A stretch of 64,000 nt of DNA from the NCBI GenBank assembly GCA_007693785.1, contig RECY01000038.1, positions 1 to 64,000 on the forward strand. Direction: 5' to 3'. Shown piece by piece: positions 6 through 51,402 of this stretch. Each line of letters starts with the position of its first letter. Within the stretch, counting starts at the first letter, position 1. Below the pieces are notes generated by a model. That model did not search any database. It was not told the origin of the DNA and was given only the letters and a program-made list of their open reading frames with translations. The position numbers and the translations under genes were made by a program. The DNA comes from Phycisphaerales bacterium (lineage in GTDB: Bacteria > Planctomycetota > Phycisphaerae > Phycisphaerales > UBA1924).

Positions 6-79
<74 letters not shown>

Positions 80-11096: not shown

Positions 11097-11572
<476 letters not shown>

Positions 11573-11583
11573 GGCTTTCAGAA

Positions 11584-21022: not shown

Positions 21023-21790
21023 CTACACGCCCTGCGCGCCCCGGCGCGCCAGGCGGCCGAGCGTCGCCGACATCGGCCAGACCAGCCACAGCGCCGCAAA
21101 CAGCGACGTCACGATCACCCCCAGCACGCCGACCCGCCACGGCCAGGGCCCGAGGTGGTCCACGATCGTCGGGTTCTCCGGCGTCGCGCTACCGATGAAC
21201 CCGTAGTTGGTGCCGAGCAGCAGATTGACCAACATCGCCGTGCTCGCCCATACGACCGAGGCCCCGACGCCGATCAGAAAATCGCGACCGGTGGGGCGGA
21301 AGCCGCGGACCGCGACGTCGTACACCGCGACGCCGACGATCTGGAGGTGCCCGATCCAGAAGAACCAGAACAGGAGCGTCGCGACGCCGTCGGTCAGCGT
21401 CGGCGTGAAGAACGCCTGCGTGCTCAGCCCGATCGCCCAGAAATACAGCACCGCGCGCAGCCAGCGGGCGTTGGTGAACAGCATCAAGGCGGCCGTCACC
21501 GACGCGAGGTCGCACAGGTGCAGCGGCAGCGAGGTGCCGATCAAGAAGTTTTCGGGCAGAAACCAGTACGTCAGGTGCGCCACCTGAAACGCGACGATCG
21601 ACCACGCGACCGCGAGTTCGGCCCGTCGCCTCGCGGCCCCCTCGCCCAGGCGGCGACCCAGCCAGCAGAACCCGACCATGAGCGCGGTGCTGATCAGAAA
21701 CACCGTCGCGTGCTTGAGCCCGAAAGGCTGGAAGACGGTCCAGTCGCCGGCGTGTGAAGCCGTCGCAAGGATGGACGGGCCCGGGCTCAT
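21023..21790 (-). CDS. TIGR02206/YwaF-like integral membrane protein
   Basis: A 255-residue protein with about seven hydrophobic helices. HYFxx-like landmarks of the TIGR02206 family are visible: FQPFGLKHATVFL near the N-terminus, WSIVAFQVAHLTYW, and SLPLHLCDLASVTAALMLF with the characteristic LPLHLC. The family role is unknown. ATG 21790 overlaps the rlmN stop by 4 nt (ATGA), and the WecA-like gene follows after 14 nt, so it is expressed with them. Confidence 0.75.
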   Translation of the reverse strand: MSPGPSILATASHAGDWTVFQPFGLKHATVFLISTALMVGFCWLGRRLGEGAARRRAELAVAWSIVAFQVAHLTYWFLPENFLIGTSLPLHLCDLASVTAALMLFTNARWLRAVLYFWAIGLSTQAFFTPTLTDGVATLLFWFFWIGHLQIVGVAVYDVAVRGFRPTGRDFLIGVGASVVWASTAMLVNLLLGTNYGFIGSATPENPTIVDHLGPWPWRVGVLGVIVTSLFAALWLVWPMSATLGRLARRGAQGV

Positions 21791-22953
21791 GTCGTCGCGG
21801 CCTCGTGGCGGAGCTGCCCGCACGCCGCCGCGATGTCCCGCCCGCGGCTCGCACGGATGTGCGCATTCACGTGGCGCGCTCGCAGGATCCGCTGGAACTC
21901 GTGAACGTCCTCCTGGCGCGGGCGCTCGAACGGCGTCGCGTCGACCTCGTTGTAGCGGATCAGGTTCACGTTCGCCCGCAGGCTCTTCGCCAGCCCCGCG
22001 AGCTGCTGGGCGTGCTCCGGGCGGTCGTTGACGTTTCGCAGGAGCGTGTACTCGAGCGTGATCTCGCGCCCGGTCTTCTTGAACCACCGCTGGCAGGCGG
22101 CGAGCAGGTCCGCGATCGTCGTGAACTCGCTCCACGGGATCAGCTGTCGCCGGAGCTCGTCGGTCGTCGCGTGCAGGCTGAGCGCGAGCGTGACGGGGAG
22201 GTCCATCTCGTTCGCCAGGCGGTCGATGTACTTCGGCAGGCCGACGGTCGAGATCGTGATGCGCCGTGCGCCGATGCCCATGCCCCAGTCGGCCGCGAGC
22301 GTGCGCACCGCTCGGCTCACCGCGTCGAAGTTGCTCAGCGGCTCGCCCATGCCCATGAACACAATGTTGGTGATGCGCCCGACCTCGGGCAGGCGGCCGA
22401 GGCGCCACGCCTGCTCGACGATCCGCCCGGCCGAGAGATTCGCGTCCAGCCCGCCCAGCCCGCTGGCGCAGAAGCGGCACCCGACGGGGCAGCCGACCTG
22501 CGAGCTGATGCAGGCCGTGCGCCGGGAGGGGGCCTTGCCGTCCTCGCCGTCCATCGAAGGGATCATGACGCACTCGGTCTGCCGGTCGCTGTGCCCGCCC
22601 GAGCCCGGGGCGTTGTTGAGCACCGCCAGGCGCGTCGCGGGCTCAAAACCGATCGAGGCCGCGCCCGCGGGGGCGGGCTCGCCGTCGCTCCACTCCACGA
22701 GCAGTTTTTGCGTGCCGTCGGTCGCGACCTGGTGCGCCAGAACCTCGCCCGAGAGAAACACCATGCTCTCGCTCAGCTTTTGGCGGTCCGCGCCGGAGAG
22801 GTTGGTCATCAACGCCGGATCGATGACGCCGTGCCGGTAGACCCACTCCAGGATCTGCTTGGCGCGGAACGCTGGCATCCCGTGTTCGGCGCACCAGGCG
22901 CTCAGCGTCTCGGGCGTGTGCTGAAAGATGTGATTTGCGGGTGAGCGGAGCAT
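21787..22953 (-). CDS. rlmN: 23S rRNA (adenine2503-C2)/tRNA (adenine37-C2) methyltransferase
   Basis: Radical-SAM enzyme that methylates A2503 of 23S rRNA and A37 of some tRNAs. In the 388-residue protein the cluster motif is GCPVGCRFC (Cys155, Cys159, Cys162), preceded by ACISSQV; FMGMGEPLSNFDAV and ALSLHATTDELRRQLIP are typical. The resolving Cys near the C-terminus sits in IAAACGQL. About 40 extra residues (roughly 105-145, NNAPGSGGHSDRQTE) lie before the cluster. There is no clear ribosome site before ATG 22953; a TACCCT hexamer lies 10 nt upstream. It is 33 nt after the pseudopilin gene and overlaps the next gene. Confidence 0.93.
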   Translation of the reverse strand: MLRSPANHIFQHTPETLSAWCAEHGMPAFRAKQILEWVYRHGVIDPALMTNLSGADRQKLSESMVFLSGEVLAHQVATDGTQKLLVEWSDGEPAPAGAASIGFEPATRLAVLNNAPGSGGHSDRQTECVMIPSMDGEDGKAPSRRTACISSQVGCPVGCRFCASGLGGLDANLSAGRIVEQAWRLGRLPEVGRITNIVFMGMGEPLSNFDAVSRAVRTLAADWGMGIGARRITISTVGLPKYIDRLANEMDLPVTLALSLHATTDELRRQLIPWSEFTTIADLLAACQRWFKKTGREITLEYTLLRNVNDRPEHAQQLAGLAKSLRANVNLIRYNEVDATPFERPRQEDVHEFQRILRARHVNAHIRASRGRDIAAACGQLRHEAATT

Positions 22954-22986: not shown

Positions 22987-23826
<840 letters not shown>

Positions 23827-23839
23827 GGGGGTCTCCTTT

Positions 23840-23873
23840 GTAGCATTGGCTACATATTTGTAGCCAAAGCTAC
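23840..23873 (-). promoter_or_regulatory. Nested palindromic operator in front of the pseudopilin gene
   Basis: A perfect 9-bp inverted repeat TTGGCTACA-TATT-TGTAGCCAA (23846-23867) is flanked by a second inverted pair GTAGC (23840-23844) and GCTAC (23869-23873). Altogether four GTAGC/GCTAC half-sites lie within 34 bp, immediately next to the ribosome binding site. It looks like a binding site for a dimeric repressor (LacI, GntR or metal-sensor type), or an RNA hairpin masking the ribosome site. No regulator gene is adjacent. Confidence 0.7.
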
Positions 23874-23939
23874 GAGACTGGGCGGGCCGCGTCAATCGGG
23901 TGGGTGAGAAAAAAAGGAAAATCGCCGGGATGGGCTTGT

Positions 23940-24986
23940 TCAGGCTTCGGGCTTGGCGCTGACCGTCAGCGGCACGGCACCGTAGAGCTCCGCTGTGACC
24001 GTCGGTGCGCTCACGCGGATCTTGCGGCTCTCGCCCTCGATCCCGCGCGACCGCATCTCGCGACGCAGCGCCCCGGGCAGCGCGAACTCCACGTCTTCCT
24101 CGAAGACCTCCGCGACCTCGAGATCCCCCCCGAACCGCCCGAGCAGCGCCCGGCAGATCGACGCGACCAGGTCCTCCGGCGCCGAAGCCCCGGCCGTCAG
24201 AAGCACCCGCTCCCCGCCCGTCAGAAACCACCCGAAATCCAGTTCCGACACGTCGTCGATCCGGACGGCCTTGGTCCCGACGTTCTCCGCGATCTCCGCC
24301 AGCCGGTTCGAGTTCGAGCTGTTGCGGCTCCCGACCACCAGCACAAGGTCGCAACCCGGCGCCAACGCCCGCACCGCCGCCTGACGATTGGTCGTTGCGT
24401 AGCAGATGTCATCGCTCGGCGGCGCCTTCAGCAGCGGGAACGCCGCCTTCAGCGCGTCGATGATCACCGCCGCGTCGTCCGTCGAGAGCGTCGTCTGCGT
24501 CAGGTACACCAGCTTCGCCGGGTCGTCGATCCGGAGCGTCGGGATGTCGTCCGGCGTTTCAACGACCTGGACCGCCTCCGGCGCTTCGCCGCGTGTGCCG
24601 ATGACCTCCTGGTGGTTCGCGTGCCCGACCAGCAAGATCTGGTACCCCTGTCGCGCGTACCGGATCGCTTCGGAGTGGACCTTGGTCACGAGCGGACATG
24701 TCGCGTCGATCGTGCGCAAGCCCCGAGCCGCCGCACGCTGGCGCACCGTCGGCGGGATCCCGTGCGCACTGAAGACAACGATCGCCCCCTCCGGCACGTC
24801 GTCCACGTCTTCGACGAACCGCACGCCCCGATCCACGAACCGCTGCACAACGTGCTTGTTGTGCACGATGTCGTGGTACACATAGATCGGCTCGCCTGGA
24901 AAGAGCGATAACGCCTGATCGACCACGTCGATCGCCATGCGCACGCCGGCGCAGAAGCCTCTCGGGTTGGGCAAAACGATCCGCAT
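23940..24986 (-). CDS. ispH: 4-hydroxy-3-methylbut-2-enyl diphosphate reductase
   Basis: Last enzyme of the MEP isoprenoid pathway, reducing HMBPP to IPP and DMAPP with a [4Fe-4S] cluster. The 348-residue protein carries the three cluster cysteines in PRGFCAGV (Cys12), DATCPLV (Cys97) and DDICYATTNRQ (Cys195), plus SAHGIPP and VGSRNSSNSNRL. It is somewhat longer than E. coli IspH because of a C-terminal extension. The ATG at 24986 gives the family N-terminus MRIVLPNPRGFC; the frame extends upstream to 25040 without support. Confidence 0.95.
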   Translation of the reverse strand: MRIVLPNPRGFCAGVRMAIDVVDQALSLFPGEPIYVYHDIVHNKHVVQRFVDRGVRFVEDVDDVPEGAIVVFSAHGIPPTVRQRAAARGLRTIDATCPLVTKVHSEAIRYARQGYQILLVGHANHQEVIGTRGEAPEAVQVVETPDDIPTLRIDDPAKLVYLTQTTLSTDDAAVIIDALKAAFPLLKAPPSDDICYATTNRQAAVRALAPGCDLVLVVGSRNSSNSNRLAEIAENVGTKAVRIDDVSELDFGWFLTGGERVLLTAGASAPEDLVASICRALLGRFGGDLEVAEVFEEDVEFALPGALRREMRSRGIEGESRKIRVSAPTVTAELYGAVPLTVSAKPEA

Positions 24987-25290
24987 AAGTCCGGGCGCGC
25001 ACGGGGCGGGAGCAAGGCCGGAACACGCACGCCGGCACATGGGAAAACGGGCAAGCTCTCGCTGAATACGATGGTAGTCCTGCCCCGCTCCCCCGTCGGC
25101 CTTCCGAAGCGATACAGCTTTTCGCTCAGGGGCTCACGGGCGTCCGCCGAGCCACGTCTCTTATGGGCTGTGCCGAGGCGGTCGCCCCACGACGCTTGAA
25201 GCGGGCGGTGTGGCGGGGGATACTTCCACATCTCTCCGGGCCGGTGGGGCTCGGGTGTTGGGGCCAAACAAGACATCAGCGGGAGCAGCG
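24987..25290. other. Intergenic region between divergent ispH and the phosphatase-like gene
   Basis: No gene or known RNA seen. It should contain divergent promoters. Candidate -10-like words are TACCAT on the minus strand near 25070 and GATACTT near 25217 on the plus strand, neither with a clear -35. Confidence 0.4.
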
Positions 25291-27022: not shown

Positions 27023-27099
27023 GCATTTTCGGTCATCGGTCATCGTTCGGGTGGCAGACAGTTTCAATGATTCGTCTGATGAAGCAGGAGCGTTCCATC

Positions 27100-28188
27100 G
27101 TGAGAAATCACTCAAATTTCGGCCGCCGGGTCCGTGCGTTTACGCTGATCGAACTCCTGGTCGTCATCGCGATCATTGCGCTGCTGATCGGGATTTTGCT
27201 GCCGGCGTTGGGCACTGCTCGTGAAGCCGCTCGCTCGCTTGTCTGCCAGACGACCCTGCGATCCCTGGCCCAAGGCCAGATTTTTTACAGCACCTCTAAC
27301 CAAGATTATTACGCGGGTCTTTCGACAACCGGTATTGCGGGGGCACGAGACGGCGGGCGCGCACGCAGCGAATGGATCTCGGATACGTCTTCAACAACGC
27401 CGGTCACCACGTTCGACTGGATCTCGCCCACGCTGGGGGATAGCGCCGATTTCAGCCCGAATCGTGCGGCACGAACCGAGCAGATACTCAACACGTATGC
27501 GTGCCCATCCGCACGTTTCAACAACGCTGATATTTTTGGAAACGCCGGTGATCGTGAAGATTTCCGAGCGAGAGTGTTAGGGACCAGTGCCGGCGGATCG
27601 GGCTTCATCCGTCAGGTCAGCTATCTGGCACCCGCGACGTTTCATAAGCTTCCCAACGGTGCCGGACGGTTCGAACAGTCCCAGGCGAGTCGGGCGGCAG
27701 GCCGAGTCCAAAGTCGTTATCGAACGACTCGAAACTTCCTTGATATTGTTCCGGGTTTTCAAATTGGTGTGCCGCTGAATTACCAGCACCGTGAAGATCG
27801 AATAGGCCTGCAGCCGTCTGCGAAAATCATGGTTGCGGACGGCACGCGATACGCATCGACTCAGCTTGGCTTGGATATTGATATCGATCCTGCGCCAAGG
27901 TATTTCAGTTCGTTCACAAGCTCCACTCCCATCTTCCAGAACTCAACCGAGTACGGGCGGACGCCGGGACAGGGTGTGGATCGGCCTCTCAACTGGCAGG
28001 CAAGTTTCCGGCACGGCGATTTCTCGATTAACGCCGCCTATTACGACGGGCACGTTGGTCGCGTCACACGCACCGAGGCGTACAGCAACGCCGCCCCGTG
28101 GGCTCCCGGGGGAAGCGTGTACAGTCGCTCCGCAGCGACTCCAGAATCTCAGCAGCGTCACCAAGAGGGTGAAGTGCTGACGCCGTGA
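27100..28188 (+). CDS. Type II secretion-like pseudopilin (H-X9-DG family)
   Basis: A protein of about 362 residues with prepilin leader RRVRA then [19 protein letters not shown], again Ala at -1 before the cut. A helix ([20 protein letters not shown]) leads into a large soluble domain; near the C-terminus [20 protein letters not shown] matches the closing H/YYDGHV motif of this planctomycete family. Start is not certain: GTG 27100 has AGGAG 9 nt upstream and gives a 19-residue leader; ATG 27079 and ATG 27067 are in frame but lack a ribosome site. Paralogue of the gene at 22987, with little similarity past the helix. Confidence 0.85.
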
Positions 28189-51317: not shown

Positions 51318-51327
51318 TGCCTCCCGA

Positions 51328-51402
51328 CGAGCCGCAACCGTGAGGGAGCGGTCCCGACGCCAACCAACGATGCGGACCGCTCCCTCACGGTCGCGGCTCG
51401 TT
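51328..51402. repeat. 28-bp inverted repeat between the two topoisomerase VI genes
   Basis: Arms 51328-51355 (ACGAGCCGCAACCGTGAGGG...) and 51375-51402 pair over 28 bp with a single mismatch, loop 19 nt. The arm sequence resembles a dispersed planctomycete intergenic repeat I recall. In the mRNA it would form a very stable hairpin between the coding regions, which could attenuate or protect the downstream message. Confidence 0.85.

Follow-up and report, generated by a model that had tools for sequence, protein, structure and literature searches.

MntR, a manganese-sensing repressor of the DtxR family, represses manganese importers when it is bound to Mn (PMC9334652). Parts of the cell envelope can also aid manganese uptake, as with Bradyrhizobium MnoP and Burkholderia TseM/MnoT, where outer-membrane proteins and a manganese binder secreted by the type VI secretion system (T6SS) contribute (PMC9334652). 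In Stenotrophomonas maltophilia, the MntR module includes boxes at manganese transport genes and at envelope genes newly tied to manganese (PMC13217887). Here we describe a 64,000-nucleotide stretch of the genome of a Phycisphaerales bacterium (contig RECY01000038.1, positions 1 to 64,000; referred to as the window), in which a palindromic element precedes a pseudopilin gene. With high confidence, we regard the element as a double operator of an E. coli-type MntR that controls the pseudopilin. The kind of operator is already known; what is new is its target, a single orthologue group of pseudopilins. The evidence is comparative sequence throughout, and the named genomes are metagenome-assembled genomes (MAGs).

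The closest described operators are those of Escherichia coli K-12, whose mntH and mntS/mntR promoters were read directly for the core motif, passages of PMC9806134 and PMC4361602 on E. coli having yielded no operator sequence. There, AAACATAGCCTTTGCTATGTTT precedes mntH, and the mntS/mntR intergenic region holds a pair of TAGCN4GCTA boxes spaced 19 bp apart; we take these to be MntR sites. The element in the window shares with them the palindromic TAGC-N4-GCTA core, the pairing of boxes seen at mntS/mntR and the same short type of MntR, but has GT..AC flanks instead of AT..AT and a pseudopilin as its target rather than a transporter or MntS. It resembles the S. maltophilia module, as presented in the excerpt of PMC13217887, in that boxes occur at both transport and envelope genes, but the envelope targets differ, being a pseudopilin here and PF13557 or OprB proteins in relatives. 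The use of envelope or secretion parts in manganese acquisition would, hypothetically, be shared with MnoP and TseM/MnoT, although the excerpt of PMC9334652 includes no pseudopilin among these. Compared with DUF1559 pseudopilins (SBP_bac_10, PF07596), the protein has the prepilin N-terminal motif and a partial DUF1559 match, but it belongs to an orthologue group of its own, with the conserved stretches FDPADPD, MWGSF and FDxCxDPW, and has operators of manganese regulators upstream. MntR control of a pseudopilin is not described in the titles and abstract openings listed by searches of openly licensed PMC papers.

Two tandem boxes at the pseudopilin gene

The minus strand from 23873 to 23840 reads GTAGCTTTGGCTACAAATATGTAGCCAATGCTAC, which can also be written GTAGCTTTGGCTACA-AATA-TGTAGCCAATGCTAC. 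It abuts AAAGGAG (23839..23833), which is followed by the ATG (23826..23824) of the pseudopilin open reading frame (ORF). The initial annotation had described a nested 34-bp palindrome against the ribosome-binding site; the sequence and the abutment were confirmed, but the true repeated unit is a 16-bp palindrome, CGTAGC/TGTAGC-N4-GCTACA, present in two copies that are 20 bp apart from centre to centre. Two such tandem palindromes give rise to the larger one as a necessary by-product, and its inner symmetry (TTTG against CAAT) is unconserved, the N4 segments mismatching each other in orthologues (CTCT/CATT in genome G016, ATAT/ACGG in G123). The features are as follows:

23859..23874, minus strand: MntR-type operator box 1 (promoter-proximal), CGTAGCTTTGGCTACA, with a single mismatch at the outermost base
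23839..23854, minus strand: MntR-type operator box 2 (start-codon-proximal), TGTAGCCAATGCTACA, exact consensus, sharing the first A of AAAGGAG
23833..23839, minus strand: ribosome-binding site AAAGGAG
22990..23826, minus strand: pseudopilin of 279 residues, the predicted regulated gene, with N_methyl (PF07963) and partial DUF1559 (PF07596) matches

An inverted-repeat scan of the window gave a 4-nt loop flanked by 15-nt arms that pair at all but one position (14 of 15), and all four GTAGC/GCTAC half-sites are exact. The judgement that these half-sites are too regular for chance is borne out: exact GTAGCN4GCTAC occurs twice in the 64-kb window, compared with a mean of 0.017 per random 64-kb sequence of the same dinucleotide frequencies, and none of 60 random sequences contained a pair.

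Boxes and manganese genes in the same genome

A genome search with the inner 22-mer of the palindrome, as initially suggested, found no second copy even at three mismatches, and the 22-mer was dropped as a search unit, its matches in 101 genomes being no commoner than those of a reversed control. TGTAGCN4GCTACA with up to one mismatch, in contrast, is found at three places in the 3.06-Mb genome (23 for the reversed pattern), two of them at the pseudopilin and the third at the start of an operon for a metal ABC transporter of the MntA/TroA type. This third box, TGTAGCCATGGCTACA, spans the start codon of a 338-residue metal-binding protein of the ZnuA/TroA family (mntA; PF01297, 262 bits), and the ORFs that follow presumably encode the ABC ATPase and permease, as named by eye.

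No regulator lies beside the pseudopilin in the window, as the initial annotation had noted, and its expectation of a distant one proved correct, since mntR is located on another contig (G000:C32:62848-63258). The product is a DtxR-family protein of about 139 residues whose best NCBIfam match is NF008273, the E. coli-type MntR. Of the regulator types that had been suggested, a metal regulator thus fits, while LacI and GntR do not.

Boxes in related genomes

Of the 163 genomes of the family, 80 contain the exact box, which co-occurs with MntR, being found in 77 of 125 MntR-positive and 3 of 38 MntR-negative genomes (Fisher p = 1.6e-9). Among the matches listed, 76 distinct exact sites in family loci, the window's own excluded, were classified by the gene that they precede; genes were assigned by comparison with a small set of references, and their starts are approximate. 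Forty-two sites have mntA, mntH (Nramp) or mntR no more than 350 bp downstream, 20 precede outer-membrane proteins (14 PF13557 and 6 OprB porin) and four, two in each of two genomes, precede the orthologous pseudopilin. The remaining 10 comprise three inside parB, one before a protein that resembles DUF2065 at a score under the Pfam cut-off, one before a protein with no Pfam match, each of these two proteins having been matched only to itself, and five unlabelled sites, one of which overlaps the start of mntB. In many genomes the box lies between mntR and mntABC, and it occurs singly at mntABC promoters; MntH of the relatives scores 637 bits, above the curated cut-off. The link to manganese genes, the co-occurrence with MntR and the core shared with E. 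coli indicate that the box is very probably an MntR operator.

The box thereby sketches an MntR regulon for the group, which would include the PF13557 and OprB outer-membrane proteins as candidate manganese porins. One or two proteins of each type were confirmed in Pfam; the loci are L096, L122, L127, L132, L133, L140, L152, L167 and L113 for PF13557 and L124, L136, L138, L145 and L146 for OprB. The boxes in coding sequences that we take, by eye, to be parB (L111:1501, L135:2001 and L144:2001) lie within the N-terminal linker in three different genera, and at L144 a second box with one mismatch is located 21 bp beyond the exact one.

Conservation at orthologous pseudopilins

Four of 163 family genomes have an orthologue of the pseudopilin, as do 9 of 397 class genomes, which include those four. 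Nine loci from named MAGs were also searched, of which three were Planctomycetota repeats of known genomes (L176 = G016, L177 = G123 and L178 = G338, merged by same contig or identical upstream sequence), two were of the Chthonomonadaceae type (L179, Chthonomonas calidirosea; L180, Chthonomonadaceae bacterium, with a partial gene at a contig end) and four (L181-L184) were short weak matches and were dropped, giving a total of 11 orthologues.

A box with up to one mismatch lies within 110 bp of the start in 7 of the 11. Two boxes, 20-32 bp apart, are found in the present genome (G000), G016, G123 and G261, and one box in G338, G478 and L179, and the boxes are kept although the upstream genes differ widely. 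In G261 the pseudopilin lies inside the mnt locus itself, where mntCBA, divergent from mntR, is followed by two boxes, then by the pseudopilin and a gene for a FeoA-type regulator. The initial annotation had held that a lack of further copies and of conservation upstream of orthologous pseudopilins would speak against a regulatory element; with the 16-bp unit, the box recurs both at mntA and at orthologous pseudopilins.

Two further orthologues, those of G014 and G256, have TTTGAN4TCAAA in place of the MntR box. In G256 this sequence is also found in the gap that separates mntA from a FeoA-type DtxR/MntR gene; in G261 it precedes mntA, and in G014 it stands between the pseudopilin and a divergent FeoA-type regulator gene. 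It occurs at eight places in six genomes (for example L206:1501, L207:1501, L200:1501 and L203:1501), four of which (one in G014, one in G016 and two in G256) have no adjoining manganese gene or pseudopilin. TTTGAN4TCAAA thus seems to behave as an operator of the FeoA-type manganese regulator, and its replacement of the MntR box at the pseudopilin suggests a regulator swap. That the pseudopilin in two genomes carries another manganese regulator's operator argues that the manganese link has been selected.

G016 has three exact boxes, two of them at the pseudopilin, and also a different, second pseudopilin directly upstream of mntR (L087:6476-7228, plus strand).

Putative promoter and proposed mechanism

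A promoter candidate, TTGACG-N17-TAGCTT, overlaps box 1:

23890..23895, minus strand: putative −35 element TTGACG
23867..23872, minus strand: putative −10 element TAGCTT, within box 1, a weak match

In most orthologues TTGACN is likewise followed by a plausible −10 element at a spacing of 16-17 nt, as in G016 (TTGACA-N17-TAGCCT), G123 (TTGACG-N16-TATGCT), G014 (TTGACT-N16-TATAGT) and G338 (TTGACG-N17-TATAGT). The overlap of box and putative promoter makes repression by Mn-MntR likely, and from these comparisons we infer the promoter, the binding of MntR and the repression of the gene by manganese. When manganese is sufficient, two Mn-MntR dimers would each occupy a 16-bp box; the boxes lie about two helical turns from each other, and a separation of ~20-22 bp would place both dimers on the same face of the DNA. 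The bound dimers would cover the −10 region and the start of the pseudopilin promoter, blocking transcription. Once manganese runs low, MntR would be released and the pseudopilin made alongside the MntABC importer, at whose promoter the genome has its one remaining box. Because MntR represses importers in its Mn-bound state, the pseudopilin is expected under manganese shortage.

Several observations weigh against control of the pseudopilin by MntR. The promoter match is weak, and a standard promoter scan found none. The MntR of the same genome scores just under the curated NF008273 cut-off (138.2 bits, cut-off 153), its orthologue in G261 exceeding it (161.2 bits), and MntA resembles both zinc (AztC) and manganese families, every match being below cut-off; with these matches ambiguous, the metal is assigned from the type of regulator and from MntH elsewhere. 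Orthologues of the pseudopilin are rare, and 2 of the 11 (G248 and L180) have neither box, L180 having a FeoA-type manganese-regulator gene ~700 bp upstream of the pseudopilin. Finally, the three boxes within the parB coding sequence indicate that an exact box is not always an obvious MntR operator.

Alternative explanations

The initial annotation had also raised an RNA-level switch, in which a transcribed hairpin, extended by GUCUC/GAGAC, would hide the ribosome-binding site and open on a signal or a change of temperature. The minus strand does fold far better than its shuffles (z = −5.2), part of GGAGAC being paired, and the tandem boxes of G016 and G123 likewise form long hairpins, but any two tandem palindromes would fold alike. 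G338, with its single box, and G261, with boxes spaced 32 bp apart, have no such hairpin, the N4 segments are without covariation, and no Rfam family reached its gathering score, the matches being low in score and due to chance. Moreover, the putative −10 element lies inside the 5′ arm, so that the transcript would start at ~23860 and the mRNA would be without that arm, and the same box is present singly at mntABC promoters. With a putative promoter overlapping the palindrome, an unconserved hairpin and no Rfam match, the switch is unsupported and we consider it highly improbable.

The element could instead be the operator of a non-metal regulator, of the LacI, GntR or BlaI/CopY type, that resembles an MntR box by chance. 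Short palindromes are used by other families too, and what is known of the box is its sequence; yet the box tracks the presence of mntR and in many genomes is flanked by mntR and mntABC, its only other copy in this genome is at mntA, and its core is common to E. coli mntH and mntS, all of which makes such a coincidence very unlikely. There is next to no likelihood that the hairpin terminates transcription of the upstream gene (23940-25040, minus strand): it does lie in the 113-bp gap after that gene, and a pattern scan reported one terminator-like site, but on the plus strand, whereas the minus-strand stem runs into AAAGGAG rather than a T run; in addition, orthologues keep the boxes behind different upstream genes, and the same box precedes mntA.

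The pseudopilin and its possible role

The prepilin N-terminal methylation motif (PF07963) is above cut-off in the pseudopilin and is also found in 9 of 10 members of the orthologue group; the genome contains 41 pilin-motif matches. The PF07596 match covers residues 31-81 only (29.4 bits, cut-off 23.3), and a partial match occurs in 4 of 10 members. Conserved stretches of the FDPADPD, MWGSF and FDxCxDPW type could bind metal. AlphaFold2 models had a mean pLDDT of 37.4 with 4 sequences and 50.1 with 10 sequences, with only the N-terminal helix usable; a fold search of the PDB with the model gave no match at E ≤ 0.001, and PDB sequence matches were confined to the N-terminal part. With poor models and no fold match, the fold gives no reading of function.

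In Planctomycetota and in Chthonomonadaceae-type MAGs, the pseudopilin appears to belong to the response to manganese starvation, and manganese depletion offers a direct experimental handle on one member of the large set of planctomycete pseudopilins that lack a known function. A role in the envelope, in manganese capture or secretion, is a natural hypothesis in view of the outer-membrane and T6SS aids to manganese uptake described elsewhere (PMC9334652) and the envelope boxes of Stenotrophomonas (PMC13217887), and it is by such analogy that we infer any part in manganese acquisition. More tentatively, and with less probability than not, the pseudopilin might be a dedicated manganese-scavenging part, a pseudopilus-like fibre or secretion piston made under manganese starvation that either traps manganese or secretes a protein that binds it, and so feeds MntABC, its manganese control having been kept in Planctomycetota and Chthonomonadaceae-type bacteria despite the regulator swap.

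Neighbouring genes and other features

The genes on either side of the pseudopilin are:

23940..25040, minus strand: upstream gene, separated from the pseudopilin by the operator region in the 113-bp gap
21787..22953, minus strand: downstream gene, 34 bp after the pseudopilin ORF

By eye, the upstream gene is presumably IspH-like and the downstream gene RlmN-like, and the latter may be co-transcribed with the pseudopilin. A second pseudopilin gene in the window (27067-28188, plus strand) is without an MntR box. The longest inverted repeat in the window lies at 51327-51401 and has 28-nt arms, 96% complementary, with a 19-nt spacer. Rfam places a class A RNase P RNA at 11102-11573 (plus strand) and a tRNA at 6-79 (minus strand).
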